A program made the position numbers and the translations under genes. From Paenibacillus sp. FSL H7-0331 (GTDB lineage: Bacteria > Bacillota > Bacilli > Paenibacillales > NBRC-103111), in assembly GCF_001956045.1 (NCBI RefSeq), contig NZ_MRTH01000001.1, positions 62,001-126,000 on the forward strand: a DNA stretch of 64,000 nucleotides. Reading direction: 5' to 3'. Numbering within the stretch: position 1 is the stretch's first letter; the number at the start of each line of letters is the position of its first letter. The notes beneath the pieces were generated by a model that made no database searches, had not been told where the DNA came from, and saw only the letters and a program-made list of their open reading frames with translations. This document shows positions 4,480 through 55,937 of the stretch, one piece after another.

Positions 4480-4492
4480 CTAGCAAACCTCC

Positions 4493-5906: not shown

Positions 5907-5948
5907 TTTGGTTCTGTCCATTAACGGTTTCTAGCGAACGCTTGCTCC

Positions 5949-5977
5949 TTTACAACCGAATGGCCTCATGCTATGCT
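5949..5977 (+). promoter_or_regulatory. Sigma-A-type promoter of the proBAC-mtnWXB transcript
   Basis: TTTACA (5949-5954) and TATGCT (5972-5977) are spaced by 17 nt, just upstream of the T-box leader. No terminator was recognised between mtnE and this point, so some read-through from mtnE is possible. Confidence 0.65.
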
Positions 5978-5983
5978 ATAAAA

Positions 5984-6215
5984 AGCAAACGTTATGATGG
6001 GATTAGTAGAAAGCCCCCCGTGTACAGAGAGTAAATTCCACTGGCTGCAAGAATTTACCGCGAAGACTTATCGAACCCGCCCCGGAACGGCCAGTGACGA
6101 GCTGGACGGCCTGCCTTGCTGTTACCTAAGGCCTATTAAGTTGGATGTTCATCATCAATTAAGGTGGTACCGCGGAAGTTCATGCTTTCGTCCTTAGAGG
6201 ACGGGGGCTTTTTGT
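5984..6215 (+). promoter_or_regulatory. T-box riboswitch (tRNA-Pro sensing) upstream of proB
   Basis: The conserved antiterminator T-box AAGGTGGTACCGCGG is at 6161-6175, followed by a terminator with stem CGTCCT/AGGACG (6189-6203, extended by G-U pairs) and T run ending near 6213. Stem I elements are seen upstream, including AGAGAG near 6026. The best specifier is CCC at 6076-6078 in the context GAACCCG, a proline codon. The UGGU bulge would pair with an ACCA tRNA 3' end. Uncharged tRNA-Pro should stabilise the antiterminator and switch on proBAC and, by co-transcription, mtnWXB. The family call is firm; the specifier position is inferred. Confidence 0.9.
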
Positions 6216-6229
6216 GCATTAATCGGGAA

Positions 6230-7363: not shown

Positions 7364-7385
7364 ACTTTCTCAGGAGGAACTCCCT

Positions 7386-8663
7386 ATGGAATCTTTGGAT
7401 CAACAAACAATCACAACCAGCGAGGTCGTACAAAAAGCAACTTTAGCCAAACAAGCTGCTCCCCGTTTAAGCCTGCTAACAACTGAACAAAAAAATACCG
7501 CCCTGCTCTTGATAGCTGACGCTCTTATAGAAGAGACACCCTCCATATTAACAGCTAATGCTGAAGATCTGCATCTTGGGCGGAAAAACGGGACTAGCGA
7601 TTCCCTGTTGGATCGTATTGCTCTGAATGAGCACCGTATTGCCGCCATGGCAGAAGGCTTGCGTCAGGTTGTGGCGCTGCCAGATCCTGTTGGTGATATA
7701 TTAGAACAAACAACGCGTCCCAACGGCTTGAATATTACAAAAATTCGTGTACCTATCGGTGTCATCGGGATTATATATGAGGCTCGTCCAAACGTCACCG
7801 TTGATGCGGCTGCCCTTTGTCTTAAGACCGGCAATGCGGTCGTGCTGCGTGGAGGATCTGCAGCCCTATCCTCCAATCGCCGTATCGTAGAGGTTCTTCA
7901 TGAAGCACTCACCCGCTCCGATATCCCTGCCGACTGCCTGCAATTAATCGAAGATCCTGACCGGAGCTCGGTAGACCAAATGCTGAAGTTAAATGGCTTG
8001 CTGGATGTACTTATCCCACGCGGTGGACACTCTCTGATTCAGAATGTTGTCAAAAATTCAACGGTTCCTGTCATTGAAACGGGCGCTGGAATTTGCCATA
8101 CTTATATAGATGAAACCGCCGATTTCCAAATGGCTCTGCAAATCGCTATCAATGCTAAAGTGCAGCGACCATCCGTATGCAACTCGATGGAAACCATGCT
8201 TGTGCATGAACGGTTTGCAGAACAGCACTTGGCATCGATCGCTGAGCAGTTTATCGCCAACAATGTCGAGCTGCGTGGCAACAAGCAGGCTCAAGCCCTG
8301 TTTTCAGCAATCAAACCCGCTTCTGACGAGGATTGGAATACGGAATACAGCGACTATATTTTGAATATCCGAATCGTAAGCTCTTTGGATGAAGCTCTAC
8401 AGCATATACGTCTCCATGGCACCCAGCATTCCGAATGTATTGTCACTACCAACGAAGCCAACGCGGAACGGTTTCTGCAGGAAGTCGATGCGGCTGCGGT
8501 ATACCATAACGCCTCCACTCGCTTTACTGATGGATTCGAATTCGGATTCGGAGCTGAAATCGGCATCAGTACACAAAAGCTGCATGCGCGCGGACCGATG
8601 GGACTTCCTGCATTAACCTCTACGAAATTCCGTGTTTTGGGCAATGGACAAATCCGCGGCTAG
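7386..8663 (+). CDS. proA: Gamma-glutamyl phosphate reductase ProA
   Basis: NADPH-dependent reductase of the aldehyde-dehydrogenase superfamily that converts glutamyl 5-phosphate to the semialdehyde. The protein has 425 residues. Diagnostic segments are RVPIGVIGIIYEARPNVTVDA, LRGGSAALSSNR, LIPRGGHSLI, IETGAGICHTY and RPSVCNSMET, the last with the catalytic cysteine. AGGAGG lies about 9 nt before the ATG at 7386; a longer frame starting inside proB is rejected. It is the second gene of the T-box operon. Confidence 0.96.
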   Translation: MESLDQQTITTSEVVQKATLAKQAAPRLSLLTTEQKNTALLLIADALIEETPSILTANAEDLHLGRKNGTSDSLLDRIALNEHRIAAMAEGLRQVVALPDPVGDILEQTTRPNGLNITKIRVPIGVIGIIYEARPNVTVDAAALCLKTGNAVVLRGGSAALSSNRRIVEVLHEALTRSDIPADCLQLIEDPDRSSVDQMLKLNGLLDVLIPRGGHSLIQNVVKNSTVPVIETGAGICHTYIDETADFQMALQIAINAKVQRPSVCNSMETMLVHERFAEQHLASIAEQFIANNVELRGNKQAQALFSAIKPASDEDWNTEYSDYILNIRIVSSLDEALQHIRLHGTQHSECIVTTNEANAERFLQEVDAAAVYHNASTRFTDGFEFGFGAEIGISTQKLHARGPMGLPALTSTKFRVLGNGQIRG

Positions 8664-8722
8664 TAGAACGTGTTCAAGCAGTCTCGACTCGACGAATCGT
8701 TTTAATTAAAGGAGAAATTACA

Positions 8723-9589
8723 TTGACGTCTTTATCTACAGCTCGTATTACGTTTGTCGGAGCCGGCTCGATGGCCGAAGCGATCTTACGCGGACTCACC
8801 GCTGATGAAAACAGCAATAAACAGCGAATTACCGTACTGAATCGCTCCGATGTAAACCGTCTGCAATTCCTGCAGCAAAATTACGGGGTTAGCCTTGCAG
8901 TCGATGCAGAGCAGCGTGCTGAAGCGATTGCTGCTGCAGATGTTGTTGTTGTAGCTTTTAAGCCCAAGGATGCTATTGAAGGACTCCTATCGATCAAATC
9001 GTTATTAAAGCCTTCGCAGCTGTTAGTTTCCGTTATCGCAGGTTTATCCATCACGACTATGGAAATGATACTTGGCACTTCAGGTCAGCCTATCGCACGT
9101 ACTATGCCGAACACTTCGAGCGCTATCGGGCTCGGAGCAACTGGCATCAGCTTTTCAAAAAGTGTCACGTCTGAGCTGCAGGAGCTCACTACACAAATGT
9201 TTGCTTCGACAGGCATCGTCACGATTGTTGAGGAAGCCAGACTGGACATTGTAACCGGTGTGTCAGGAAGCGGACCAGCTTACATTTATTATTTGATGGA
9301 AGCCATGATCGAAGGTGGTGTTCGGGGCGGTCTCACGCCGGAAGCTGCCAAAGAGCTTACGATCCAAACCGTGCTCGGTGCAGCGCAAATGGTTCAACAA
9401 ACCGGTGAAGCACCTGCTGATCTCCGTCGGAAGGTAACTTCACCAAATGGCACCACTCAAGCAGCCATTGAAATGCTGGACCAGCATCAATTTGCTATTG
9501 GGGTGACGAAGGCTGTTTTACGTGCTTCAGAACGTGCCAATGAGCTTGGCAAAACGATCAGTGCGCAGGCAAGTGAAATCAAATTCTAA
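8723..9589 (+). CDS. proC: Pyrroline-5-carboxylate reductase
   Basis: NAD(P)H-dependent reductase making proline from pyrroline-5-carboxylate. The 288-residue protein has an N-terminal Rossmann motif FVGAGSMAEAILRGL (residues 10-24) and the C-terminal P5CR dimerisation region with GVSGSGPAYIYYLMEAM and VTSPNGTTQAAIEML. It starts at TTG, with AAAGGAG 8 nt upstream. It completes proBAC in one transcript; mtnW starts only 17 nt after its stop, with no terminator between them. Confidence 0.95.
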   Translation: MTSLSTARITFVGAGSMAEAILRGLTADENSNKQRITVLNRSDVNRLQFLQQNYGVSLAVDAEQRAEAIAAADVVVVAFKPKDAIEGLLSIKSLLKPSQLLVSVIAGLSITTMEMILGTSGQPIARTMPNTSSAIGLGATGISFSKSVTSELQELTTQMFASTGIVTIVEEARLDIVTGVSGSGPAYIYYLMEAMIEGGVRGGLTPEAAKELTIQTVLGAAQMVQQTGEAPADLRRKVTSPNGTTQAAIEMLDQHQFAIGVTKAVLRASERANELGKTISAQASEIKF

Positions 9590-9606
9590 TTAAGCAGGTG
9601 AAGCTC

Positions 9607-10923
9607 TTGTCTTATTCTTACTGTTCAGCAACTTATCGCTGCTATGACGAAAAGGCTGATTTCAATAAAAAAGCGCTCGGTATCGCCGTTGGCTTGACCG
9701 TAGGCAGCTGGACCGATTTACCCGAAGCTAAAAAGGCAGATATGGAGCGGCATCTCGGTAAAGTGATTAGCGTTGACGTTCATGAACCCGACAGCAGCAG
9801 TGGAGAAACCGCCTCTGAGCGGTACGCTGATATCCAGATCGCTTATCCAGACTTGAACTTCAGCCGTGACATCCCGGCACTACTCGTGACGGTATTTGGC
9901 AAGCTGTCGATGGATGGTCGAATCAAGCTAATCGACTTATCATTCTCAGAGAATTTTTTATCCGGCTTCCAAGGACCGAAATTTGGTCTCGAGGGCGTTC
10001 GCAAGCTGCTTGGAGTACAAGATCGGCCTCTCCTGATGAGTATTTTCAAATCCGTTATCGGTCATGATTTGCCGACACTTCGTGAGCAATTTTATTTGCA
10101 GGCGCTTGGTGGAGTCGATCTGATTAAGGACGATGAAATTTTGTTCGAAAACCCTCTTACTCCTTTGGAAAAGCGGGTTGAGGTGTGCATGGAGGCTGCG
10201 GCACAAGCCGAACAAGAAACCGGACAAAAGCTGCTGTATGCCGTTAATCTGACAGGTCCAACCTTCAGTCTGCTGGATCAAGCACGTAAAGCGATTCAAG
10301 CTGGTGCCAATGCCCTGCTGTTCAATGTATTGGCTTATGGCTTCGATGTACTGAATGAACTTAGCCGCCATCCTGACATCAAGGTGCCCATCATGGCCCA
10401 TCCGGCAATGGCTGGAGCCTTGTATCCTTCAGCATATCATGGAATTTCGGCTAATGTCCTGCTAGGCAAGTTGATGCGTCTGGCGGGAGCTGATATCGTA
10501 TTGTTCCCATCCCCTTACGGTTCTGTCGTAATGCCGCGTGAAGAAAATATGGCGATCAAGCAAGCATTGCTTACCGAAAACAAGGCCGATTACGTGTTTA
10601 ATTCACAAAATAGTGAGCGTACAATCAAAGAAAATGGTAAATCATCCTCACATCAGGCACTTTCTCTGCGCAGCAGCTTTCCGGTCCCATCCGCAGGCAT
10701 TCATCCGGGATTGGTTCCACTCATCCTGAAGGATTTTGGCAATCAAACGATCGTTAACGCTGGCGGAGGAATTCATGGTCACCCGATGGGTACAGTTGCT
10801 GGCGGCCATGCTTTTCGCCAAGCGATAGATGGATGCTTGGCAGGTCAATCCCTCAAGACATACGCCCTTCAGCATCCTGAGCTTAACGCCGCGATTGAAG
10901 CCTGGGGGCTTAGAGAATCATGA
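9607..10923 (+). CDS. mtnW: RuBisCO-like 2,3-diketo-5-methylthiopentyl-1-phosphate enolase MtnW
   Basis: Type IV RuBisCO-like protein of the methionine salvage pathway: enolises diketo-methylthiopentyl phosphate. The motif GGVDLIKDDE contains Lys174, Asp176 and Glu177, matching the carbamylated lysine and Mg ligands of RuBisCO, and later segments such as MAHPAMAGALYPS and NAGGGIHGHPMGTVAGG fit the family. The 438-residue length is slightly above the usual 410-415. I chose the TTG at 9607 because AGGTGA lies 5 nt upstream; a GTG at 9598 is an alternative. It lies directly behind proC and overlaps mtnX by 4 nt. Confidence 0.93.
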   Translation: MSYSYCSATYRCYDEKADFNKKALGIAVGLTVGSWTDLPEAKKADMERHLGKVISVDVHEPDSSSGETASERYADIQIAYPDLNFSRDIPALLVTVFGKLSMDGRIKLIDLSFSENFLSGFQGPKFGLEGVRKLLGVQDRPLLMSIFKSVIGHDLPTLREQFYLQALGGVDLIKDDEILFENPLTPLEKRVEVCMEAAAQAEQETGQKLLYAVNLTGPTFSLLDQARKAIQAGANALLFNVLAYGFDVLNELSRHPDIKVPIMAHPAMAGALYPSAYHGISANVLLGKLMRLAGADIVLFPSPYGSVVMPREENMAIKQALLTENKADYVFNSQNSERTIKENGKSSSHQALSLRSSFPVPSAGIHPGLVPLILKDFGNQTIVNAGGGIHGHPMGTVAGGHAFRQAIDGCLAGQSLKTYALQHPELNAAIEAWGLRES

Positions 10924-11582
10924 GTCGTCAACGTATTATCTTTTGCGACTTCGATGGTACGATCACTGTCAATGACAATATCGTAGCGATCATGAAGCAC
11001 TTTAAGCCGGAAGGCTGGGAGTCATTGGTCGAACAGGTGATTTCGAAGAAAATGACGATCCGGGAAGGTGTCGGGCGAATGTTTGCTTTACTGCCAACCT
11101 CACGCAGACAGGAAGTCGTCGATTATGCAATCAATAACGTGACGATCCGGGAAGGTTTCGCTGAGCTATTAGCCTACTGTAAGGAGCAGCACATCGAATT
11201 TTATGTGACCAGCGGCGGCATCGATTTTTTCGTGTATCCGGTATTGTCAGCCTTTCCGATTCCACATGACCATATTTATTGCAACGCCAGTAATTTCAAT
11301 GGAAGCCATATCGAGATTGTATGGCCGCATGCTTGCGATGAGCATTGTCACAATGACTGCGGTATGTGCAAAACGACGATTATACGACGCTATTCCCCTG
11401 ATAATTACGAACGTATCCTGATAGGGGACAGCGTGACCGATTTCGAAGGCGCAAAGCTCGTTGAAACCGTATTTGCCCGTTCCCATCTGATTGATCTATG
11501 CAGTGAGCTCGGTTTGAATTATTTCCCATTTGATAATTTTCATGAGGTAATCCAGCGTTTAGAGGAGATGAGCGTACAATGA
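10920..11582 (+). CDS. mtnX: 2-hydroxy-3-keto-5-methylthiopentenyl-1-phosphate phosphatase MtnX
   Basis: HAD-superfamily phosphatase of 220 residues acting on the product of MtnW. The nucleophile and acid/base are in FCDFDGTIT (Asp10, Asp12); the motif III/IV region is LIGDSVTDFEGAKL. A Cys/His-rich loop (HACDEHCHNDCGMCK) lies near residues 139-153, as in MtnX proteins. Its ATG overlaps the mtnW stop and its stop overlaps the mtnB start (ATGA at both ends), so the three mtn genes are translationally coupled. Confidence 0.93.
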   Translation: MSRQRIIFCDFDGTITVNDNIVAIMKHFKPEGWESLVEQVISKKMTIREGVGRMFALLPTSRRQEVVDYAINNVTIREGFAELLAYCKEQHIEFYVTSGGIDFFVYPVLSAFPIPHDHIYCNASNFNGSHIEIVWPHACDEHCHNDCGMCKTTIIRRYSPDNYERILIGDSVTDFEGAKLVETVFARSHLIDLCSELGLNYFPFDNFHEVIQRLEEMSVQ

Positions 11583-12226
11583 CAAATCCAGCTGAGCTTC
11601 GCTTGGAGGATAAGCAGCAGGCTTTCGCCGAGCTGCGCGAGATTAAGACGACCTTGGCCAACAAAGGCTGGTTTCCAGCAACAAGCGGCAATCTCTCGAT
11701 CCGTGTTGGTGATTTTGCACCTGACCAATTTACCTTTGCGATTTCCGCGAGCGGTAAAGATAAGTCCGTACATACACCATCCGATTTTTTGTTGGTCAAT
11801 GAACATGGCAAGCCGACAGAAGCTACTGGGCTGAAGCCTTCAGCAGAAACTTTGATCCATAAAGAGATATATCGTTTAACTGGCTGTGGCGCTATTCTGC
11901 ATGTACATACCGTGTTCAACAATATCGTCTCGGAGCTGTTCTGGGAGCGCAAATCGATCCCGGTGGATGGCGTCGAATTGATCAAAGCCTTCAACATTTG
12001 GGATGAGGAAGCTCATATTGAAATTCCTATTCTCCCTAACTATGCGGACATCCCACGAATTGCTGAGCTGGTGGAAGGTGCAATCGTACCCAAGGTTCCA
12101 GGCATTATGCTGCGCAAGCATGGTATTTACGCATGGGGCGCCAACTGCTTTGAAGCCAAACGCAATCTGGAAGCTTTCGAGTTTTTGTTCGAATACGTCT
12201 ACCGTATGGAGTTATTAAAAAAATAG
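11579..12226 (+). CDS. mtnB: Methylthioribulose-1-phosphate dehydratase MtnB
   Basis: Class II aldolase/adducin-fold zinc enzyme of 215 residues that dehydrates methylthioribulose 1-phosphate, the step before MtnW. The motifs WFPATSGNLSIR and LHVHTVFNN (zinc ligands His108 and His110) and the later RKHGIYAWG are seen. It is the last gene of the operon and is followed by a strong terminator. mtnA, mtnK, mtnD and the nucleosidase are not in this window. Confidence 0.94.
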   Translation: MTNPAELRLEDKQQAFAELREIKTTLANKGWFPATSGNLSIRVGDFAPDQFTFAISASGKDKSVHTPSDFLLVNEHGKPTEATGLKPSAETLIHKEIYRLTGCGAILHVHTVFNNIVSELFWERKSIPVDGVELIKAFNIWDEEAHIEIPILPNYADIPRIAELVEGAIVPKVPGIMLRKHGIYAWGANCFEAKRNLEAFEFLFEYVYRMELLKK

Positions 12227-14042: not shown

Positions 14043-17000
14043 TTATATATGATTGGCTGGCATCGCTTCGGATTGGAAGTTGATGGACTCCAGCATATGC
14101 CAAAGCGCCCGCACCGTATCCAGTGATGTCATACAAACAATGCCATTCTCTACCGATTCACGGCGAATACGGAATCCGTCGCGCTCCGGTGTTTTACCTT
14201 TGGTTAACGTATTGACAACGAAATGCGCTTCTCCATTGCGGATCAAATCCAGAATGTTTGGAGAACCCTCGCTGAGCTTGTTCACAGTCGTTACAACGAC
14301 CCCCGCTTCTTCCAAAGCTTTGGCCGTACCGCCTGTTGCTACGATCTTATAACCTAGCTTGTAGAAGCCTTTTAAAATCTCAATGGCTTCTTCTTTATCT
14401 TTGTCAGCTACGGTTGCGATGATAGAGCCTGTCGGCGGTATTTTCATACCGGAACCGATTAAGCCTTTGTACAAAGCTTTTGCAAAGCTCTTATCACGCC
14501 CCATTACCTCACCCGTCGACTTCATCTCAGGTCCAAGTGTCGTATCTACACGGCGCAGCTTGGCAAAAGAGAACACAGGCACTTTTACAGATACAAAGTC
14601 ATCCTCTGGCCATAGGCCCGTTTCATATCCCATATCGGTAAGCTTCTCGCCAAGAATAACACGCGTCGCGACATTCGCCATCGGAATTCGGGTTACTTTG
14701 CTTAAGAATGGCACGGTTCTGGACGAACGCGGATTCACCTCAATCACATAAGGCTGATCTTGATAAATAACGAATTGGATATTAAGCAAACCGACGATTT
14801 CCAAACCTCTGGCAATTTTCGTCGTAATCTCAATGATTTGCTGCTTGATGGAATCCGAAACCGTTTGTGTTGGGTACACAGCAATCGAGTCACCTGAGTG
14901 CACACCGGCTCTTTCAATATGCTCCATAATACCAGGGATGACGACGGTCTCCTTATCGCAGATCGCATCGACTTCCACTTCTTTACCCAGCATATAACGG
15001 TCAATCAATACCGGATGCTCAGGGTTGATTTTTACGGCATACTCCATGTAGCTCAATAGCTCATCATCGGAATAGACGATTTCCATCGCGCGGCCACCCA
15101 GTACATAAGATGGACGAACCAATACCGGGTAACCATGGATCGCAGCCATACCTACTGCCTGGTCAACTGATGTTACTGTACCGCCCGGAGGCTGAGCGAT
15201 ATTCAATCCACGAAGCAGCGCTTCGAATTTCTTGCGATCCTCTGCTGCATCGATGTTTTCCAGATCGGTACCAAGAATGCGTACGCCTGCTTTGGATAAT
15301 GGTGCAGCCAGGTTGATCGCAGTTTGACCGCCGAATTGAACGATAACGCCGATTGGCTGCTCGCGCTCAATAACGTTCATAACATCCTCGAAGAATAAAG
15401 GCTCGAAGTACAAGCGATCGGAAGTATTAAAATCGGTTGACACGGTTTCTGGATTGTTATTGATGATTACAGCTTCGTACCCAGCAGCTTGAATTGCCCA
15501 TACCGCATGCACTGTGGAGTAATCGAATTCGATACCTTGTCCGATACGGATTGGACCGGAACCCAATACAACAACCTTTTGTTTTGTAGCTTCCTTGACT
15601 TCATCTTCAGTCTCATAGGTAGAGTAGTAGTAAGGCGTAGTGGCTTCGAATTCAGCAGCACACGTATCTACCATTTTGTATACGGGCTTCAGACCAATGC
15701 TTAAGCGGTAAGCACGAATTTCGGACTCATTCGTAAATTTCAAGCCGCTGTTAGCTGCTGTGCGAATTTCAGCGATAGCACGATCTGTAAAGCCTTTGCG
15801 TTTGGCTTCACGCAGAACCTCATCACTTAGCTCAGGCTCAGCGATCTGCTTTTCGAACAGGATCATACCTTCCAGCTTGTTCAGGAACCACCAGTCGATT
15901 TTCGTCAAATCCTGAATTTGCTGTAACGTATAACCGCGGCGGAATGCTTCTGCGATCAGGAACATCCGTTCGTCATCGGGTTTTACCAAGCGCGTTTCCA
16001 ACGTTTCTTGATCGAGCAAGTCGGTTTCCTTAAGGAACAGACGGTGAACGCCAATTTCCAATGAACGGATCGCTTTATGAATCGATTCCTCGAAAGTACG
16101 ACCGATAGCCATAACCTCGCCGGTAGCTTTCATTTGCGTACCCAGCTTACGATTGGCTGATGTAAATTTATCAAACGGCCAGCGTGGGATCTTCGATACG
16201 ATATAATCCAGTGTTGGCTCGAAGCAAGCGTAAGTTTGACCCGTTACCGGGTTCATAATTTCGTCCAAGGTGTAACCGATAGCGATTTTGGCAGCCATTT
16301 TGGCAATCGGGTAGCCGGTTGCTTTGGAAGCCAGAGCGGATGAACGGCTTACACGTGGATTTACTTCAATTACATAATATTGATAGCTGAAAGGATCAAG
16401 TGCGAACTGAACGTTACAGCCACCTTCAATATTCAGTGCGCGAATAATTTTCAACGATGCGGAACGCAGCATTTGATATTCACGATCAGATAATGTTTGG
16501 CTCGGTGCAACAACGATGCTGTCCCCTGTATGAACGCCAACCGGATCGAAGTTTTCCATGTTGCAGACAACGATACAGTTATCGTTCGCATCACGCATTA
16601 CCTCGTATTCAACTTCCTTCATACCTGCGATGCTTTTCTCAACCAGACATTGTCCAATTGGACTGTAACGGATTCCTGAAGCTACGGTCTCCACCAGTTC
16701 TTCCATGTCGGCGCAAATGCCTCCACCTGTTCCACCCAGTGTATATGCAGGACGAACAATTAATGGAAACCCGATTTCATTCGCAAAATCAACAGCTTCT
16801 TCAACAGTCGTTACGATAACACTATCCGGAACGGGCTGCTCTAATTCTCTCATCAGATCACGAAACAGGTCACGATCCTCGGCTTTTTCGATAGCTGTTA
16901 ATTGTGTTCCCAGCAGCTTGACATTTTCACGCTCCAGCACACCTGCACGAGCCAAAGCAACGGCCATATTCAGACCTGTTTGACCACCAAGTGTTGGAAG

Positions 17001-19853: not shown

Positions 19854-21439
<1,586 letters not shown>

Positions 21440-21472
21440 TTAGTGCCTAATAGCCGTTGTTTCCATTCGTTC

Positions 21473-21495
21473 ACCTTGCCAGTCTCTCTGGACTG
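21473..21495 (-). promoter_or_regulatory. PyrR-binding anti-antiterminator hairpin and antiterminator arm
   Basis: The minus-strand hairpin CAGTC-CAGAGA-GACTG (21480-21495) matches the conserved PyrR-binding loop. The following GGCAAGGT (21473-21480) is perfectly complementary to the ACCTTGCC arm of the terminator, giving an antiterminator. PyrR-UMP binding would sequester this arm and allow the terminator to form. Confidence 0.9.
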
Positions 21496-21523
21496 AGTTT
21501 AAAGGTGCTTTTAAGTTACGAGT

Positions 21524-40625: not shown

Positions 40626-40900
40626 AAAAAAACCTCCCATCCCCATAGGGACGAGAAGCCTCGCGTTACCACCCTGATTAAGACTTGCAGCTGTGCGCCA
40701 GACTTCTGTTCAGAAATCTCCGGCTTGCAGCCCAATAGCCTTCACTCAACAATCGTTAACGGGATTAGCCGATCCTCTCTACTGCTGGTTCAAGAGAATG
40801 CTCCTGGGTGATTTTCCATTACTGCAAAGATCGGGCTCGCACCAATCCCCGACTCGCTTTCCTTGCGTACGTAACCTACTCTTCCCACTCATCGCTTTTT
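40626..40900 (-). promoter_or_regulatory. T-box riboswitch (tRNA-Ile sensing) upstream of ileS
   Basis: Read on the minus strand, the T-box AGGGTGGTAACGCGAGG is at 40659-40675, followed by a 10 bp terminator stem and a T run (40626-40659). In stem I the specifier AUC (40810-40812), in context GAAAAUCACC, reads isoleucine. Uncharged tRNA-Ile should induce ileS and possibly the downstream DUF5665 gene. Confidence 0.95.
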
Positions 40901-40906
40901 GTGATC

Positions 40907-48322: not shown

Positions 48323-49321
48323 ATGAAACCACGTAAAGTGAAGATCGTTGGAAGCGGAATCTATTTGCCTAAACAGTTGATTACTAGCGATGACATGGAT
48401 CTTAAATTACAGGTTCCTTCTGGTTGGGTTCTCAGGAAATCAGATGTCAGAACCCGGCATTTCATTCAGGATGAGACCGCAGCGGAAATGGGTGCGAGTG
48501 CAGCATATGCAGCACTCGCAAACGCTGAACTCACCTTTGCAGATATTGATTGCATCGTATGTACGAGTGGGACGATGCAGCAGCCAATACCTTGTACAGC
48601 AGTTTTAATCCAAAAGGCCATGCAGCAGGAGCATTCGGGGATACCCTGCTTTGATATCAATTCGACCTGCCTTAGCTTTGTTACTGGCCTAGACACCATG
48701 TCCTACCTGATCGATGCAGGAAGATACCGCCGTGTCCTGCTTATAGCCACAGAAATTGCGTCGGAGGGAATTAATTGGACCGATAAAGAAAGTGCTTCCT
48801 TGTTTGGGGATGGCGCCGCTGCCGTCGTGATTGAACGGTCAACCGATACCGATAGCTCGGCTATACTCCACGCAGCCATGGAAACTTACAGCTCCGGGGC
48901 CCATCTGTCCGAGATTAAAGCAGGTGGAAGCTTGCAGCATGCCAAACAGCATACGACTACCAATGCAGATAACTATTTGTTCCAAATGAACGGTCAAGCC
49001 ATATTCAGGATGGCCTCCAAGCTGCTTCCCCGCTTTGTCGAGCAGCTGCTCACAAAAGCACAATTGCGTATGGCCGATATAAGCTTGGTTATTCCACATC
49101 AAGGCAGTGCCATGGCCATGAGATTGCTGCGTAAACGATTAGATATTTCCGAGGAGAAACTGCTTTACATTACACCAACGTTCGGGAACACTATCGCAGC
49201 ATCGATTCCTATCGGACTTCACGAAGCAATACGCCTTGGCAAAATTTTAAGGGGTGACCGCATAATGCTGCTTGGCACTTCTGCCGGACTTTCTTTAGGA
49301 GGCATTGTGCTTGAGTACTAA
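48323..49321 (+). CDS. 3-oxoacyl-ACP synthase III (FabH/OleA-like) condensing enzyme
   Basis: First gene of the seven-gene cassette. A 332-residue thiolase-fold protein with a complete Cys116-His259-Asn289 triad (DINSTCLSFV, LVIPHQGSAMAM, TPTFGNTIAASIP). The HQGS in place of FabH's HQAN and lack of the usual FabH ACP-docking pattern suggest a specialised enzyme, as in OleA, secondary-metabolite KAS III or acyl-transfer homologues, rather than housekeeping FabH. It probably condenses or transfers an acyl thioester. GAAGGGAG lies 7 nt before the ATG. It overlaps the next gene by 11 nt. Confidence 0.9.
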   Translation: MKPRKVKIVGSGIYLPKQLITSDDMDLKLQVPSGWVLRKSDVRTRHFIQDETAAEMGASAAYAALANAELTFADIDCIVCTSGTMQQPIPCTAVLIQKAMQQEHSGIPCFDINSTCLSFVTGLDTMSYLIDAGRYRRVLLIATEIASEGINWTDKESASLFGDGAAAVVIERSTDTDSSAILHAAMETYSSGAHLSEIKAGGSLQHAKQHTTTNADNYLFQMNGQAIFRMASKLLPRFVEQLLTKAQLRMADISLVIPHQGSAMAMRLLRKRLDISEEKLLYITPTFGNTIAASIPIGLHEAIRLGKILRGDRIMLLGTSAGLSLGGIVLEY

Positions 49322-50534
49322 TACGGGAATGAACATTCTGCTAACCGGAGGACGTGCACCCGTTGCATTGGAATTAGCAAGGATGCTAGCCAAGGCCGGC
49401 CATCGTGTCGATCTTGCAGAAAGCGTAACTCATCATCTTTGCAGAAAATCCAAAGCCATTGCCCAAAGCTTTCTCGTTCCTAAACCTAATCAAGAGCCTG
49501 ATGCGTATATTTCGGCTTTGTCTCGAATTATTGGGCAGCGAAACATTCAGGTGCTCCTGCCTACCTGTGAAGAGATCTTTTGGATTGCACGAGGACTAAC
49601 GAAGCTTCAAAGCCTTTGCAAGGTCATCTCAGCACCTTTGGAGCAATTAAGACGTCTTCATAGCAAATGGGAGTTTATCCGGCGTGTGGAGACGTTTGGC
49701 TTCGCAATACCTCAAACACAAATTTTTCATAATACAAAAGAATGGGCGAATGTATGTAATGAAGAACACTCATGGCTCGAAGCAGGCTTTGTATTAAAGC
49801 CGGTTTTCTCGCGTTTTGGTGCCAATGTCCAGTTATTTGGCCCAGATTGCTCGGTTGCAGACAGACTCAAACGTCTACAAACCAACCATGGCATAACAGC
49901 TACACCGGCCCAGCCCTGGATCATTCAACGATATATAAAAGGGAGACCGCTCTGCACGTATAGTGTGGCATGGGAGGGTGTCGTAGTTGCCCATTCCGCT
50001 TATGAAGTGGAATATACGGCCAATCAGGGGGCTTGTGTATACTACAAGCAGCTTCAGCACTTACAAGCTTTGAACTGGGTGCAATCCTTCGTACAAAAAG
50101 AGCATTTCAGCGGACAAATCGCTTTTGACTTTGTGGAATCCTATGAAGACGGTATCTTGTATCCCATAGAATGCAATCCACGGGCAACAAGTGGAGTTCA
50201 TTTGTTTAGCCCGGAGGACAAACTCGTTGAAGCGCTTATCCATCCTGAAGACTTATCCCAACAAGCATGTAGGAAACCGCAGACTAATCAAGCTGCCATG
50301 CTGTCCATACCTATGCTGGCTTATGGACTGAATAAGGAACGAACCTGGGCGGCCATCTGTCACTGGTGGGCACAGTTTGTCTCGGCACGAGATGTCATAT
50401 GGCAAGTCCGAGACCCGTTACCTTTCCTGGAGCAGATTCCGCTAATGCTGGACGCTTGGCGGCTGAGCCACAAACAAGCGATATCCATCACTGCAGCGAT
50501 GACTTATGATATTGAATGGAATGGTGAAGCATGA
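49311..50534 (+). CDS. ATP-grasp domain ligase
   Basis: A 407-residue protein with an N-terminal Rossmann-like pre-ATP-grasp domain (MNILLTGGRAPVALELARMLAKAGH), an ATP-grasp core with Lys163 in FVLKPVFSRFG, WIIQRYIKGRPL, and the metal-binding YPIECNPRATSGVHLF (Glu287, Asn289). ATP-grasp enzymes join a carboxylate, via an acyl phosphate, to an amine, thiol or similar nucleophile. The start is TTG, with AGGAGG 8 nt upstream and overlapping the upstream gene. Neither substrate can be named; its presence implies an amide- or ester-forming step in the pathway. Confidence 0.88.
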   Translation: MSTNTGMNILLTGGRAPVALELARMLAKAGHRVDLAESVTHHLCRKSKAIAQSFLVPKPNQEPDAYISALSRIIGQRNIQVLLPTCEEIFWIARGLTKLQSLCKVISAPLEQLRRLHSKWEFIRRVETFGFAIPQTQIFHNTKEWANVCNEEHSWLEAGFVLKPVFSRFGANVQLFGPDCSVADRLKRLQTNHGITATPAQPWIIQRYIKGRPLCTYSVAWEGVVVAHSAYEVEYTANQGACVYYKQLQHLQALNWVQSFVQKEHFSGQIAFDFVESYEDGILYPIECNPRATSGVHLFSPEDKLVEALIHPEDLSQQACRKPQTNQAAMLSIPMLAYGLNKERTWAAICHWWAQFVSARDVIWQVRDPLPFLEQIPLMLDAWRLSHKQAISITAAMTYDIEWNGEA

Positions 50535-51520
50535 AAGCACTCGTAACAGGAGGAACAGGATTTCTCGGAGGCCGCTTGGCTGAGCGTCTGCTGGACGCAG
50601 GTTCGGAAGTGACGATTATTGGACGTAACGCCGTGATAGGCGCCAAGTTCGCAGCCAAAGGTGCGAGATTCATAGAGGCGGATCTTCGCGATGAGCAAGC
50701 CATTGTCAACGCATGCCTGGGTCAGGAAGCGGTCTTCCATTGTGGAGCCTTGTCTTCTCCGTGGGGAACCTATCGCGACTTCTTTGAAACAAACGTAAAA
50801 GGTACTCGGCATATCCTGCATGGATGCCGGATTCATAAGGTGCAGCGGCTTGTACATGTGTCTACACCAAGCGTCTATTTCAATTTCACAGATCGTTTGA
50901 ACATTTCAGAAGCAGACCCGCTTCCGACCCGATTTGCCAATGCTTACGCGGCTACCAAACGGCTAGCCGAACTGGAGGTTTTGCAGGCTATTTCAGCGGG
51001 ACTTCAGGCTATGATCATCCGTCCTCGTGCTATCTTTGGTCCGGGCGACAGCTCCATACTGCCGCGTATCATTAGAGCCAATGCTTCACGTGGAGTTCCG
51101 ATCATTAATGGGGGTCATGCATGGATGGATCTAACCTATATTGATAACGTCGTAGATGCATTGCTGCTCTGCCAACAAGCTCCGGACTTGGCATGGGGAC
51201 GCATATTCAATATCTCTAACGATGAGCCTGTTCAGTTATCGACAATCATACCAAGATTATTCGCTATGCTCGATATTCCGCTCCGAGCAAAGGCTGTATC
51301 CTACCGAGCTGCATATGGATTAGCCGCTATGCTGGAGCTAGCAGCGCATCTGCTGCCTGGTAACCACGAACCATTACTAACCCGATACAGTGTCGGAATT
51401 CTGGGACGGAGCCAGACGCTGGATATTAGCGCAGCACGCCAGATTCTGGGTTATACACCACAAGTTAGTATCGAAGAAGGCTTGCTAGCATTTGCAGCGG
51501 TTTGGAGGACACCCCTTTGA
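50531..51520 (+). CDS. NAD-dependent epimerase/3-beta-HSD-type dehydrogenase (OleD-like)
   Basis: Extended SDR of 329 residues with the Rossmann motif ALVTGGTGFLGGRLAERLL and the active site Ser114, Tyr139-x3-Lys143 (STPSVYF, NAYAATKRLAE). The pattern HCGALSSPWGTYRDFFETNVKGT is shared with OleD, which reduces the 2-alkyl-3-oxoacid made by OleA in bacterial olefin synthesis. With the OleA-like gene in the same operon, a beta-keto reduction is a reasonable inference. Its ATG overlaps the ATP-grasp stop (ATGA) and its stop overlaps the next TTG start. Confidence 0.9.
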   Translation: MKALVTGGTGFLGGRLAERLLDAGSEVTIIGRNAVIGAKFAAKGARFIEADLRDEQAIVNACLGQEAVFHCGALSSPWGTYRDFFETNVKGTRHILHGCRIHKVQRLVHVSTPSVYFNFTDRLNISEADPLPTRFANAYAATKRLAELEVLQAISAGLQAMIIRPRAIFGPGDSSILPRIIRANASRGVPIINGGHAWMDLTYIDNVVDALLLCQQAPDLAWGRIFNISNDEPVQLSTIIPRLFAMLDIPLRAKAVSYRAAYGLAAMLELAAHLLPGNHEPLLTRYSVGILGRSQTLDISAARQILGYTPQVSIEEGLLAFAAVWRTPL

Positions 51521-52437
51521 GACCCTTTCAGTTGTCTCCTATTCACCAGATTCACTTCTTACGTGCCGGTTACTGCACACATCGGGAATGGGTGACCATT
51601 CGTGGAGGAACTTTCCGCTCAGTTCGCTTCCCAGCTGGTTTTGCTTGTATCGAGCATCCGACAATGGGCCTCATTCTATTTGACACAGGATATTCAGAAC
51701 GATTTCTGATAGAAACATCATCCTATCCAGCGAGCCTGTACCGCTATCTGACCCCTGTTTATTTCAGTGAAGCCGATCGTGCTCTTAGTCAGCTTCAACG
51801 GATTGGCTATGAGGCTCAGGATGTCGCTCTCATTATTATTTCACATTTTCACGGGGATCATATTGCCGGCTTGCGTGATTTCCCTCGGGCCCAATTTATT
51901 TATGCAGCGGAAGCCTATGAGGAGGTTCGTAACCTGCAAGGTTTGGCAGCCGTAAGGGCTGGCTATTTACCGAATCTGCTTCCTGATGATTTTGAAGAGC
52001 GATCTATTGCCATCACCTTCAATCCATCCTTCGCTGTACCATCAAGCAGCTCAATGACCATGAGCGCTTTATCAAAGGGAAGCACACCAGCCTCTTCTTT
52101 CTGGCCTATGCACGCCGCACTCCCGCCAGAATGTCCGTTTACATCAGGCATCGATTTACTCGGAGATGGCAGTATGATCGCTGTTGATCTACCAGGTCAT
52201 GCCGAGGGCCAGATCGGATTATTGGTATCTACGAATCAACAGGATTATTTCCTGTGCGCCGATGCAGCGTGGTCCAGTAAAGCCATCCGCTTCAATTTAC
52301 CGCCGCATCCATTAGCAGGGCTAATCATGTCCAATCGTCAAGGCTACCGAGCTACCTTTAATAAGCTGATACAATTGAATCAAAGGTTTCCTTCTCTACA
52401 AATAGTACCCTCACACTGCACAGAGGTTCCAAAATGA
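51517..52437 (+). CDS. Metallo-beta-lactamase-fold hydrolase, lactonase-like
   Basis: A 306-residue protein with the metal motif SHFHGDH (HxHxDH, residues 110-115), VDLPGHAEGQIG (third His), CADAAW (bridging Asp) and PSHCTE (last His). The layout resembles N-acyl homoserine lactonases. It starts at TTG, overlapping the upstream TGA, with GGAGG 8 nt before. In this cluster it could hydrolyse a lactone or thioester intermediate; if the pathway passes through a beta-lactone, it could take the place of the OleB hydrolase. That is inference only. Confidence 0.88.
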   Translation: MRPFQLSPIHQIHFLRAGYCTHREWVTIRGGTFRSVRFPAGFACIEHPTMGLILFDTGYSERFLIETSSYPASLYRYLTPVYFSEADRALSQLQRIGYEAQDVALIIISHFHGDHIAGLRDFPRAQFIYAAEAYEEVRNLQGLAAVRAGYLPNLLPDDFEERSIAITFNPSFAVPSSSSMTMSALSKGSTPASSFWPMHAALPPECPFTSGIDLLGDGSMIAVDLPGHAEGQIGLLVSTNQQDYFLCADAAWSSKAIRFNLPPHPLAGLIMSNRQGYRATFNKLIQLNQRFPSLQIVPSHCTEVPK

Positions 52438-52464
52438 TAATCGGGAAAAGGAGTGATGTTAAGG

Positions 52465-53814
52465 ATGCTGAACCGCAAAGCGACTGTCCTCTGGCACTAT
52501 TTCCTTGATCGTTATCTGCATAGATGGGCTAATCGCCGTGCCTTTGAAGAGTGGCAGGAAGCCAAAGTGATAGCACATTTACAGCTTATTCGAGAGTCCT
52601 CAACCTTTTATCAGGAATTGTGGAACGGCCTCATTCTATCCAAGTGGCGAGAGTTTCCTATTATTAACAAGCAAATCATGATGGATCATTTCGATAGCTT
52701 GAACACAGTGGGTATCCGCAAGGAAGAAGCCTTTACTTTGGCGCTGAAAGCAGAGAGCACAAGAGACTTTACACCACAGCTGAATGGGATTACGATAGGC
52801 TTATCCTCTGGAACCTCTGGAAACAGGGGGTTATTTGTCGTTAGTCCGCAGGAGCAATACGCTTGGGCAGGGAGGGTTCTCTCCAAGGTTTTGCCAGGCT
52901 CCCTTCTTGCCTCACACCGTATCGCTTTTTTTCTGAGAGCCAATAGCAACCTGTATGGGTCCGTCAGTGGGGCGAGGCTTCGTTTTGAATTTTTTGATTT
53001 AATCGAGCCCATGCAGCAGCATATTCATCGCTTGAATACTTATCTGCCCAATCTCTGGATTGCACCTCCTTCCGTACTCCACTTATTAGCGGATGCTTAT
53101 CGTCAGGGCAAGCTGATAGCCAAGCCGCAGCGAATGGTTTCAGTAGCCGAGGTGCTTGACCCACTGGATCGGCAATATATCGAATCCGTCTTTCAACTGC
53201 CCATACATCAGGTTTATCAGTGTACGGAAGGCTTTTTGGCAGCCACTTGCGCTCATGGAACCCTTCATCTGAATGAAGATATGGTTGCTTTTCAAAAAGA
53301 ATCTGTTGATGGTGAACGTAGGTTCGTTCCGATCTTGACCGACTTCACACGTTTCTCTCAGCCCCTCATCCGCTACAGGCTGAACGATCTGCTGGTTGAA
53401 CGTTCAAGACCTTGCCCGTGTGGTTCCCTTATGACAGGTATAGAAGCTGTAGAGGGCCGCTGTGACGATTTATTTTATTTGCCTCATGCGGTAGATCAGG
53501 AGCTTGTTCCCGTATTTCCCGATCTGATTACTAGAACAATCATGGGTGCTGCTCCCACTGCCGTCGCTTATCATATTGTGCAGCTTGCTCCCGACCGGAT
53601 CGAGCTTTCGCTGGAATTCGCTGTCGACACTTCTACCACGATGGATTTCATATATTCGACCGTTCAACTAGCATTAGAAACCTTATTTATCCGGATGAAT
53701 TGCAAGAAACCGAACATCCACATGACTCCCTACGAGACCATAGTACCTGGAACAAGAAAATTACGCCGGGTGGAAAGGAGATTCTCCGTTGAATCCAGCC
53801 ATTCAAATCTATAA
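52465..53814 (+). CDS. Adenylate-forming enzyme, CapK/F390-synthetase-related
   Basis: A 449-residue protein of the CapK/PaaK-like branch of the ANL superfamily. The phosphate loop ITIGLSSGTSGNRGLF (SSGTSG at 114-119), YQCTEGFLAATC (A5-like), and RPCPCGSLMTGIEAVEGRCDDLFYLP near the C-terminal hinge are seen. Such enzymes activate a carboxylate as acyl-AMP; F390 synthetase adenylylates coenzyme F420. Which substrate is used here is open. ATG at 52465 has AAGGAG 11 nt upstream; two closer starts overlap the ribosome site. It overlaps the next gene by 26 nt. Confidence 0.86.
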   Translation: MLNRKATVLWHYFLDRYLHRWANRRAFEEWQEAKVIAHLQLIRESSTFYQELWNGLILSKWREFPIINKQIMMDHFDSLNTVGIRKEEAFTLALKAESTRDFTPQLNGITIGLSSGTSGNRGLFVVSPQEQYAWAGRVLSKVLPGSLLASHRIAFFLRANSNLYGSVSGARLRFEFFDLIEPMQQHIHRLNTYLPNLWIAPPSVLHLLADAYRQGKLIAKPQRMVSVAEVLDPLDRQYIESVFQLPIHQVYQCTEGFLAATCAHGTLHLNEDMVAFQKESVDGERRFVPILTDFTRFSQPLIRYRLNDLLVERSRPCPCGSLMTGIEAVEGRCDDLFYLPHAVDQELVPVFPDLITRTIMGAAPTAVAYHIVQLAPDRIELSLEFAVDTSTTMDFIYSTVQLALETLFIRMNCKKPNIHMTPYETIVPGTRKLRRVERRFSVESSHSNL

Positions 53815-54949
53815 TCACGAAACCATTCATCAGCTGCAATGGCCCGACACTGAGCAAGGAGGTTATGCTAAACGGTATCTACTCCCAATACTAAGTCATT
53901 CTCCTACAGCTTTCATAGAAAATGTGACAACGAAGCTTTGGGTTCTCCTTATCGATAATATCGTAATTCCCTTTACTGTTAATGATCAGGAATACGATAA
54001 TTGCTATGTGTGCTCACCTTATACTCACTATGTCACCTATGCCAAGCAAGAGCTTGCCTTGCTGCAGCAGCCTGTAATTGAGACGATTCTGGCAGCCCTA
54101 TTGAATACAGTAGGTTTTGGATTACGATTAGGACGGATCAATCAAACAGTCCATATGAACAATTGGCTTCTATCTACTAATTTGTACGTAAATTTGACCA
54201 GCCTCCAGCTTACGGCTATTGTCGATTATATGAGTAAACGTTTCCCGACTCATTCACTAGCCTGGCGTTCACTGAACCCTACAACAACTTCTGCACAATT
54301 AGAATCATTAGCAAAGCAGGGCTGTAGAATGATCCCAAGCCGGCAAATCTATCTGTTGCCTACGGATCAAATGGGTGGCTTACCCTCCAAGGCACGATGG
54401 CTCATCAAACGCGATTATAGCTTAATCGAAAAAAATGGATACGAATTGATAAGTCCGGATGAACTCAAAAAAGCCGATATGTCCAGACTGAGAGATCTGT
54501 ACAATGCACTTTATCTGGATAAATATTCACGCTGCAACCCTTGGTTTAGCGAACGTTTTCTGGATTTGGTCAGACAAGAACAATTATTAAACCTGTATGC
54601 ACTTCGGCATATCGAGTCGGGACGCATCGATGCGGTGCTTGGTTATTTTAACCGCGAGGGGATTATGACGACTCCCGTCTTTGGTTACGACACGCAGTTG
54701 CCTCAAGCTACAGGACTGTACAGGATGCTCTCAGCCGTGCTTATTCGATTGGCTCTGGAACATGGCTATCTGCTGCATGAAAGCTCTGGAGCGGCTCAGT
54801 TTAAGCGTAACAGAGGCGCAACTGCCGACATTGAGTACACGGCAATCTATGATCAGCATCTCCCAGGCTATCGGCGTTGGGGCTGGTCCCTGCTCGGTAG
54901 TGTGCTTAATAGAATTGGTGTCCCTATCATGAAAAAGTATAAATTTTAA
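53789..54949 (+). CDS. GNAT/FemAB-like acyltransferase, function unknown
   Basis: A 386-residue protein. The first 180 residues match nothing I recognise; the C-terminal half (about 215-360) has GNAT/FemAB-like features: RDLYNALYLDKYSRCNPWFSERFL, LYALRHIESGRIDAVLGYFNREGIMTTPVFGYD and HESSGAAQFKRNRGATADIEYTAIYD. FemAB/BioF2-type enzymes use acyl-CoA or acyl-tRNA donors. It starts at TTG, with AAAGGAG 8 nt upstream, inside the preceding gene, so translation is coupled. It may acylate or aminoacylate the product. Confidence 0.75.
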   Translation: MNPAIQIYNHETIHQLQWPDTEQGGYAKRYLLPILSHSPTAFIENVTTKLWVLLIDNIVIPFTVNDQEYDNCYVCSPYTHYVTYAKQELALLQQPVIETILAALLNTVGFGLRLGRINQTVHMNNWLLSTNLYVNLTSLQLTAIVDYMSKRFPTHSLAWRSLNPTTTSAQLESLAKQGCRMIPSRQIYLLPTDQMGGLPSKARWLIKRDYSLIEKNGYELISPDELKKADMSRLRDLYNALYLDKYSRCNPWFSERFLDLVRQEQLLNLYALRHIESGRIDAVLGYFNREGIMTTPVFGYDTQLPQATGLYRMLSAVLIRLALEHGYLLHESSGAAQFKRNRGATADIEYTAIYDQHLPGYRRWGWSLLGSVLNRIGVPIMKKYKF

Positions 54950-54967
54950 AGGAAGGGGTCTAGAGCT

Positions 54968-55879
54968 ATGAACACCTCAATCCATTCACCTGCTGACCAT
55001 CCCTCCTCGATTCCTTCGTCTGAGCCTGTTATCCTGGTAACCGGTGCTTCGAGCGGCTTTGGCCTATTAATCTCAATCACTATGGCCAAAAAGGGTTATC
55101 GTGTCATTGCTTCCATGCGGGACCTGAGCAACCAAAGCCAGTTGATGGAACAAGCAAGAGCAGCCAAAGTAGAACTGCTGATTGACTGTGTACAATTGGA
55201 TGTAACTGACCATAGGACAATATCAGAGGTGATTAACGAGACTATGGAGCGCTATGGCCGAATCGATATTCTCGTCAACAATGCTGGTTTGGCGATAGGT
55301 GGTTTTATTGAGGAGGTGCCTATCGAGGCTTGGCGGCAGCAAATGGACATTAATTATTTTGGCTTGGTCGCCGTTACCAAAGCTGTACTGCCCTATATGC
55401 GCCAGCAGCGAAGTGGGCATATTTTTAATATTAGCAGTGTGAGCGGGCGTGTCGGTTTTCCAGGGTATGCCCCCTATGTTGCCTCCAAATTTGCCGTTGA
55501 GGGTTTCAGTGAGGCACTCCGTCTGGAAATGCAGCCCTTCGGCGTGCAAGTCGTACTTATTGAACCCGGGGCGTATCCAACAAGTATTTGGAAAAAAGGC
55601 TTCGATTCGATACACACTTCTCCCCATTCACCCTATCAGGATCAGTTGGACGCCGTGCTGAATTATTCCAAAAGTACTCTCAATAATGGTGCCGATCCTC
55701 AAGATATTGCTGATGCCATTGCTCGGATTTCGAGATTGCGTCGTCCCAAACTACGTTATGCAATGGGAAAAGGAGTCCATTTCTTGCTGTTCAGTAAAGT
55801 ACTGCTCCCCTGGAACTGGATTGAGTCATTCATGCTAAAGTTACTGAAAATAAGAAAAGCTCCTGACCGGAGCCTATAG
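54968..55879 (+). CDS. Short-chain dehydrogenase/reductase
   Basis: Classical SDR of 303 residues. Cofactor motif VTGASSGFG (24-32), NNAG (104-107), and catalytic Ser157, Tyr170, Lys174 (NISSVSGRVGFPGYAPYVASK). The C-terminus (HFLLFSKVLLPWNWIESFMLKLLKI) is hydrophobic and may bind the membrane or a lipid substrate. AAAGGAAGGGG precedes the ATG after a spacer. It is the last cassette gene and could catalyse a second reduction or oxidation of an acyl chain. Confidence 0.9.
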   Translation: MNTSIHSPADHPSSIPSSEPVILVTGASSGFGLLISITMAKKGYRVIASMRDLSNQSQLMEQARAAKVELLIDCVQLDVTDHRTISEVINETMERYGRIDILVNNAGLAIGGFIEEVPIEAWRQQMDINYFGLVAVTKAVLPYMRQQRSGHIFNISSVSGRVGFPGYAPYVASKFAVEGFSEALRLEMQPFGVQVVLIEPGAYPTSIWKKGFDSIHTSPHSPYQDQLDAVLNYSKSTLNNGADPQDIADAIARISRLRRPKLRYAMGKGVHFLLFSKVLLPWNWIESFMLKLLKIRKAPDRSL

Positions 55880-55892
55880 GGGGAAGAAACAC

Positions 55893-55926
55893 AAAAAAAT
55901 GACTTCGATCAACTCGAAGTCATTTT
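55893..55926. terminator. Bidirectional terminator between the cassette and ftsZ
   Basis: ATGACTTCGA and TCGAAGTCAT form a perfect 10 bp stem around a 5 nt loop, with seven A before and four T after. It serves the SDR gene on the plus strand and, with the longer T run, ftsZ on the minus strand. Confidence 0.9.
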
Positions 55927-55937
55927 GCACGATAACC

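Follow-up and report, generated by a model that had tools for sequence, protein, structure and literature searches.

The 64-kb window analysed here (64,000 nucleotides of contig NZ_MRTH01000001.1 from Paenibacillus sp. FSL H7-0331) carries, on its forward strand between positions 48323 and 55879, seven same-strand open reading frames (ORFs) that overlap or are closely spaced (Table 1). In order, they encode a β-ketoacyl-acyl carrier protein (ACP) synthase III (KAS III), an ATP-grasp ligase, a dehydrogenase resembling OleD of the olefin/β-lactone (ole) pathway, a metallo-β-lactamase-fold (MBL) hydrolase, an adenylate-forming enzyme related to F390 synthetase (hereafter F390-related), a GNAT-like protein and a short-chain dehydrogenase (SDR), which confirms the one-directional seven-gene cassette recognized in an earlier, sequence-only reading of the window. 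The spacings between the longest frames are -17, -4, -19, +15, -26 and +18 nucleotides; the overlaps of 11, 4, 4 and 26 nucleotides and gaps of 27 and 18 nucleotides given in that reading hold with in-frame starts at 49311, 51517 and 52465, whereas the longest frames of these three genes begin at 49305, 51502 and 52453, respectively. The same reading saw no standard nonribosomal peptide synthetase, polyketide synthase (PKS) or carrier protein gene, and indeed none of the seven proteins matched such a family in Pfam or NCBIfam.

Table 1. The seven cassette genes and the adjoining inverted repeat, in window coordinates
Feature	Coordinates	Strand	Evidence
KAS III	48323..49321	+	NCBIfam PRK07204, 478.5 bits (curated cut-off 402); Cys116-His259-Asn289; HQGS motif
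ATP-grasp ligase	49311..50534	+	PRK06849, 379.3 bits (just under 406)
OleD-like NAD(P)-dependent dehydrogenase	50531..51520	+	Best NCBIfam match NF042422 (OleD), 259.6 bits (under the curated cut-off, 580); Tyr139xxxLys143
MBL-fold hydrolase, lactonase-like	51517..52437	+	Pfam Lactamase_B
F390 synthetase-related adenylate-forming enzyme, CapK/PaaK-like	52465..53814	+	TIGR02304, 503.3 bits (cut-off 251.9)
GNAT/BioF2-like putative N-acyltransferase	53789..54949	+	Database relatives named GNAT, some with PF13480
SDR	54968..55879	+	PRK06914, 389.9 bits (cut-off 320)
Inverted repeat, probable terminator	55896..55926		Lies where the SDR gene and ftsZ converge; resembles a terminator on the - strand

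The KAS III meets the curated cut-off of its own subfamily (Table 1), but scores 237.2 bits against the FabH model TIGR00747, under the cut-off of 292.1, and 108.8 bits against PRK09258 (cut-off 285), the model passed by four OleA orthologues. The closest solved structures are 4v2p (314 profile bits), which was deposited as a ketosynthase and which we take to be MxnB, and CorB (4yuc; 303 profile bits); Aquifex FabH gives 248 profile bits, and the OleA structures (3fk5 and 3row, presumably the Xanthomonas campestris enzyme) at most 86. The Cys-His-Asn triad, formed by Cys116, His259 and Asn289, is present in all 78 cassette-type KAS sequences that were aligned. Three residues beyond the His, all 78 have Ser (HQxS), as do 5/5 OleA sequences and both MxnB and CorB, whereas all 44 FabH-type enzymes have HQxN. 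The column of the catalytic Glu of OleA (E117, present in 5/5) is occupied in the cassette-type enzymes by Ile (52), Leu (22) or Met (4), and in none of the 78 by Glu; MxnB and CorB have Val at this position. In a tree of 129 sequences, with SH-aLRT (Shimodaira–Hasegawa-like approximate likelihood ratio test) support only and 35 of its 124 inner branches below 80, the 44 FabH-type sequences form a separate clade (support 97) and the five OleA sequences lie on their own branch of length 2.98 (support 100). Neither group includes the cassette KAS rows, among which MxnB and CorB sit together with the KAS rows of loci L057, L068 and L071; the deep forks among these rows are weak, so a single clade is not established.

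Housekeeping FabH is ruled out as the identity of this KAS by the separate FabH clade and by the division between HQxS (78/78) and HQxN (44/44); the grouping with FabH that the sequence-only reading had set against itself was not seen in the tree. OleA is likewise ruled out, by its long branch and by the Glu present in 5/5 OleA sequences and 0/78 cassette enzymes, and the proposal that the KAS III fills the role of OleA is not borne out as regards OleA's manner of working. Judged by sequence comparison, the cassette KAS is neither OleA nor FabH, and its nearest relatives would be MxnB and CorB. According to excerpts of PMC4578411, the Glu of OleA and PpyS deprotonates the bound acyl chain, and MxnB and CorB carry Val in its place, perhaps because a β-keto chain is acidic enough; MxnB couples two β-ketoacyl chains (PMC5724707, in excerpt). 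Given the missing OleA-type Glu and the precedent of MxnB and CorB, we infer by analogy that the cassette KAS would require an activated condensation partner. Excerpts of PMC4578411 assign MxnB and CorB to the FabH clade; in our tree the FabH clade, as sampled here, does not include them, although the sampling differs. As a separate observation, a second cassette-type KAS match, in two frames, lies upstream of the intact cassette of Paenibacillus bouchesdurhonensis (L044, 6666-7612), and is possibly a decayed duplicate.

The OleD-like enzyme falls well short of the curated OleD cut-off (Table 1), and the Tyr and Lys of its TyrxxxLys motif are kept in 45/45 rows. In a quick, long-branched tree without bootstrap, to which 16 further epimerase-type paralogues had been added, the 40 cassette rows group together (SH-aLRT 91), and their sister group (86) consists of true OleD and three of the paralogues, which points with moderate support to a sister relation to OleD and fits the kinship suggested earlier. 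OleD itself acts on free β-keto acids. The two-zinc site of the MBL protein is complete (H115, H117, D119, H120, H233, D254 and H305, numbered from the 51502 start), and all seven ligands recur in 54/54 rows, these having been picked for an MBL match. Among solved structures, lactonases are closest to it in sequence, yet it lies far under the curated lactonase cut-offs (AttM, 68.4 versus 390 bits; AiiA, 51.4 versus 375); a thioesterase role is also possible, such as that of PqsE in quinolone synthesis. In the window, in Escherichia coli and in Ketogulonicigenium, the MBL and OleD-like genes overlap, and at a planctomycete locus (L071, 10967-12955) the two domains are fused in a single 662-residue ORF, which is followed there by NAD(P) transhydrogenase-type genes. 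The F390-related protein has AjiA1 and PaaK-type ligases as its nearest structures, and its ATP-binding motifs are conserved. Against TIGR03335, which models coenzyme F390 synthetase proper, it scores only 19.8 bits, and the eight families that it matches at 0.001 include no OleC model (PRK09274/olefin β-lactone synthetase); membership of TIGR02304 is secure by the curated cut-off, but the family name assigns no function.

The arrangement is conserved. In 59 related genomes searched for the window KAS, with 4-kb loci examined, 17 hold a KAS of 54–97% identity, the remaining matches reaching at most 189 bits. The ATP-grasp gene comes next after the KAS in 17/17, and the OleD-like gene can be seen to begin within 16 of the 17 loci; the 17th (L016, genome G055) ends early, and a longer stretch (L188) holds all seven genes. 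A wider scan of genome contigs yielded the best 80 of 353 KAS relatives, so that the locus counts are no census: 51 are cassette-type and 29 FabH-type (28 by the KAS tree, plus L091 outside it). When half-length matches within 8 kb on the KAS strand were counted, the 51 cassette-type loci held the OleD-like gene in 45, the MBL gene in 43, the F390-related gene in 41 and all three in 35 (47, 44, 41 and 35 if strand is ignored). By contrast, the 29 FabH-type loci held no OleD-like, MBL, F390-related, ATP-grasp or GNAT-like gene; an SDR match, probably FabG, lies near 16 of them. This co-occurrence defines a core of KAS, OleD-like, MBL and F390-related enzymes, and upholds the earlier view of a genuine co-inherited pathway; a chance neighbourhood is ruled out by the order kept in 16 of the 17 genomes together with the co-occurrence at the 51 loci. 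The other three genes are accessory and stand outside the core, since on the KAS strand the ATP-grasp gene is found at 27, the GNAT-like gene at 21 and the SDR gene at 12 of the 51 loci, all 12 of the last titled Paenibacillus or Cohnella. In the cassette of Paenibacillus sp. HGH0039 (L041) there are two ATP-grasp genes (10989-12158 and 15349-16599), as well as a SUKH-family protein and a Rieske-like protein. With regard to the window proteins themselves, the ATP-grasp ligase reaches 19.7 bits against Pfam ATP-grasp_3 (below the cut-off of 23.2), the GNAT-like protein has no match in Pfam or NCBIfam, and a sequence search of the PDB matched neither the former (limit 0.001) nor the latter (limit 1).

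The whole core occurs in Bacillota, Pseudomonadota, Bdellovibrionota, Chlamydiota, Bacteroidota and Verrucomicrobiota, several of the loci being from metagenome-assembled genomes with unchecked labels, and its presence in six phyla and in E. coli rules out a restriction to Bacillota. Among 398 evenly drawn Bacillota genomes, nine pass the TIGR02304 cut-off; OleD-like and MBL genes stand beside the F390-related gene in seven of these, and the KAS as well in six (in G201, a short contig ends first). Sub-threshold F390 relatives in G206 and G138 are without a core partner. A plasmid collection contains 31 records with a match to the F390-related gene, and all eight that were examined carry the four core genes, in a single run in seven. 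On the 904-kb plasmid pBASL58 of Pseudomonas sp. Leaf58 (L117), the core genes are interspersed with hypothetical genes across 10 kb, and another ATP-grasp match lies downstream. The cassette has probably spread horizontally. Pairwise distances of the four core proteins correlate at 0.82–0.91 over 45 sets (Mantel test, 0/500 permutations), although shared ancestry alone also raises such values and the MBL rows were shortened in 28 sets.

This coupling bears on the possibility that the MBL and F390-related enzymes stand outside synthesis, serving in self-protection or in the turnover of a lactone signal made by the KAS and the OleD-like enzyme. By sequence the MBL is indeed closest to N-acyl-homoserine lactone (AHL) lactonases, and other condensing ketosynthases do make signals (photopyrones; PMC4578411, in excerpt). 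However, the overlap or fusion of the MBL and OleD-like genes and the correlation of MBL distances with those of its three core partners argue against it, and no conserved transporter or receptor was recognized beside the core, where the minor neighbour clusters are only partly identified; we regard the proposal as very unlikely. The likeness to AiiA and AttM extends to the HxHxDH/H/D/H zinc ligands, but not to their curated families.

What accompanies the core differs from lineage to lineage, as far as can be judged from neighbour ORF calling, which is rough at GC-rich loci (some ORFs are antisense and some genes merged or missed). ATP-grasp and GNAT-like genes accompany it in many Bacillota, rhizobia, Nereida, Simkaniaceae and Paraburkholderia. 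Elsewhere there are Rieske oxygenases (L046, L058 and L069 by Pfam, L060 by NCBIfam, and L041, L062 and L071 by clustering), GT21 glycosyltransferases (L040 and L050; L051, L054, L059 and L066 by clustering), glycosyltransferases of the GT28/UDPGT type (L040, L050, L051 and L059) and sulfotransferases (L056 by Pfam, and annotated on Ketogulonicigenium and Paracoccus plasmids). A fatty-acid desaturase lies beside the core in L042, and L053 has a Pfam FA_hydroxylase protein that is weakly like OlsE (57 versus 475 bits). A fixed core with changing head-group- and chain-tailoring enzymes suggests that the core products form a family of lipids.

In E. coli, where the tailoring genes are for a phosphatase, a hydroxylase and a desaturase, a plasmid record shows in one run the KAS, OleD-like, MBL and F390-related genes followed by those for a PAP2 phosphatase, a sterol-desaturase-type protein and an acyl-CoA desaturase; TIGR02304 gives 755.5 bits with the F390-related protein. 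The operon matches 672 of 5,426 complete E. coli genomes (~12%), is at least 80% covered in 671 and is chromosomal in 671 of 673 places. In Nissle 1917 (L119, NZ_CP022686.1), the seven overlapping genes (4001-10882) lie between narI and the rtT/tRNA-Tyr/purU region. The 40 carriers listed include an O25b:H4-ST131 strain and strain Seattle 1946, which we take to be ATCC 25922. A record labelled as a plasmid (L111, NZ_CP141085.1) carries narGHJI, purU, galU, hns and tdk, and thus appears to be a chromosomal segment of E. coli.

Our preferred interpretation, to which we would give slightly less than an even chance, is that the cassette specifies an undescribed lipid-biosynthesis pathway, with a four-enzyme core, lineage-specific decoration and activated-partner KAS chemistry. 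The component enzymes are of known families, and the pathway logic is akin to that of ole; on the best reading of the sequences, the product would be an activated β-hydroxy (or β-lactone) lipid acid that is then decorated. The KAS III would condense its Cys-bound acyl chain with an activated partner (a β-ketoacyl or malonyl-type thioester), because it lacks the Glu by which OleA deprotonates a plain acyl chain. The two-zinc MBL would then cleave the thioester (or a lactone) to free a β-keto acid, which the OleD-like enzyme would reduce to a β-hydroxy acid. Next, the F390-related enzyme would adenylate the carboxylate, leading either to β-lactone closure, as in OleC, or to transfer to an amine or alcohol. 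In the window, the ATP-grasp, GNAT-like and SDR enzymes might finally add and adjust an amino-containing head group; in other lineages, sulfation, glycosylation, hydroxylation or desaturation would take the place of this step. The wider proposal, that the core is an unrecognized, phylum-crossing pathway for β-hydroxy/β-lactone lipids whose decoration would be amino-acylation in Bacillota and sulfation, glycosylation or desaturation in other groups, and that ~12% of complete E. coli genomes encode a form of it, is possible, but we hold it with some doubt.

If these proposals are correct, one four-enzyme set would lie behind an unnoticed class of lipids in rhizobia, soil Bacillota, chlamydia-like bacteria and predatory bacteria, as well as in a fair proportion of E. 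coli strains, Seattle 1946 and the probiotic strain Nissle 1917 among them. The F390-related enzyme would then represent a second β-lactone- or amide-forming ligase, unrelated to OleC, and could shed light on the workings of a ligase family that is widespread but has no assigned function. With so broad a core and an operon in E. coli, the cassette is of more interest than one odd cluster, and the E. coli version would allow direct tests in a convenient laboratory species.

Several observations weigh against this interpretation. By the 8-kb half-length test, one or more core genes are missing from 16 of the 51 loci, among them four from Luteimonas/Lysobacter without an F390-related gene and two from Paenibacillus (L028 and L036) without an MBL gene; L066 and L067 have weaker MBL matches that fall below the test. 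Two of the nine Bacillota F390-related genes stand alone (G352, 290 bits; G395, 282 bits). The window KAS barely reaches the broad FabH-type subfamily PRK09352 (249.1 bits, cut-off 249), its advantage towards MxnB and CorB over Aquifex FabH is modest, and support is poor at the deep branchings of the KAS tree; given this modest kinship and these weak forks, a FabH-like decarboxylative reaction with malonyl-ACP might still apply.

The KAS would in that case act as a chain starter, joining acyl-CoA to malonyl-ACP or malonyl-CoA as FabH does; the MBL and OleD-like enzymes would yield an ordinary 3-hydroxy fatty acid, and the F390-related enzyme would couple it to an amine or alcohol, giving a lipoamino acid, an aminolipid or an ester. 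A KAS dedicated to chain starting would duplicate FabH and FabG, and the HQxS/HQxN division sets all 78 cassette enzymes apart from the FabH type. The Cys-His-Asn triad is nevertheless that of FabH, both enzymes being of the KAS III family, and the head-group- and chain-tailoring accessories (ATP-grasp, GNAT-like, glycosyltransferase, sulfotransferase and fatty-acid hydroxylase) would suit such a route. A 3-hydroxy C18 acid has reportedly been obtained from E. coli Nissle 1917 (PMC8995832, in excerpt), a link to the operon being speculation. On balance, we consider chain starting unlikely, though not to be dismissed, and retain condensation with an activated partner as the preferred chemistry.

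The analogy with the Xanthomonas-type OleABCD system is half right. Both systems have a condensing enzyme of KAS III fold, an OleD or its probable sister dehydrogenase and an AMP-forming ligase, with no PKS or nonribosomal peptide synthetase among the genes. However, the cassette KAS lacks the OleA Glu, the ligase is F390-related and not OleC, a two-zinc MBL stands where OleB would be expected, and the ATP-grasp, GNAT-like and SDR genes are additional; no α/β hydrolase (OleB) is found among the seven cassette genes, the rest of the genomes not having been searched for one. An OleC-model match at 1e-40 is likewise absent from eight cassette-bearing Bacillota genomes (G001, G005, G007, G009, G024, G052, G055 and G468). 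A sign that the F390-related enzyme may stand in for OleC comes from a myxococcal locus (L049), at which no F390 gene was found and the slot is taken by an OleC-like ligase, under the cut-off of both models (PRK09274, 433.5 versus 478 bits; the Xanthomonas OleC model, 346.8 versus 900). Its gene overlaps the OleD-like gene, which in turn overlaps the MBL gene, the KAS being divergent. This agrees with the earlier placing of the CapK-like protein in the position of OleC. It is, on the other hand, the one good locus for such a replacement, since the AMP-ligase that follows the OleD-like and MBL genes in L056 is only weakly similar to OleC (70 bits), and this too counts against our interpretation.

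A pathway of the ole type proper, making an olefin or β-lactone, can draw on this ligase exchange, on the apparent sister relation to OleD, on the HQxS motif shared with 5/5 OleA sequences and on the lactonase likeness of the MBL. Apart from the lost Glu (78/78) and the long OleA branch, it has to contend with four Luteimonas/Lysobacter genomes (those of L050, L051, L054 and L057) that hold cassette-type KAS, MBL and OleD-like genes as well as true OleD (624–649 bits, cut-off 580) and OleA (454–468 bits on PRK09258). These OleA proteins are strong matches to the X. campestris structure and are encoded 15 to 119 kb from the true OleD gene, or on another contig; in a Luteimonas genome, a true OleC match adjoins OleD. 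This coexistence suggests separate pathways, although the four loci concerned lack the F390-related gene. We therefore judge a true ole-type pathway improbable, and prefer a distinct one with an activated condensation partner.

MxnB and CorB, which offer the closest solved structures and share with the cassette KAS both the HQxS motif and the absence of the OleA Glu, complete polyketide antibiotics made by type I PKSs (PMC5724707, in excerpt); the cassette has no PKS, and its KAS is accompanied by OleD-like, MBL and F390-related genes. Among the top matches in the open-licence PMC literature, searched by titles and abstract openings, no description of the gene set was found; it may be described elsewhere. 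Judging from excerpts, an F390-type ligase is mentioned for other fatty-acid clusters in a paper on ladderanes (PMC2649909), a survey of OleA (PMC7064751) concerns OleA proper, and the parts of PMC3573123 and PMC12304814 at hand have no bearing on the cassette.

The cassette has a G+C content of 47.6%, against 46.2% for the window. On the opposite strand it is flanked by what we take, from reading the ORFs, to be spoIIGA/sigE on one side and ftsZ/ftsA on the other. Two genomes, G001 and G009 (L138 and L139), have all seven genes at the identical site, and spoIIGA also adjoins the cassette in G007 (L003); no flanking-gene match was found at the other fetched loci, and thus the site differs elsewhere. 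The inverted repeat beyond the SDR gene lies in a region (55855-55935) with a folding z-score of -4.46. Further afield on the - strand of the window are a T-box leader (40644-40901) and a PyrR binding site (21354-21509), the score of the latter exactly equalling the Rfam gathering score.

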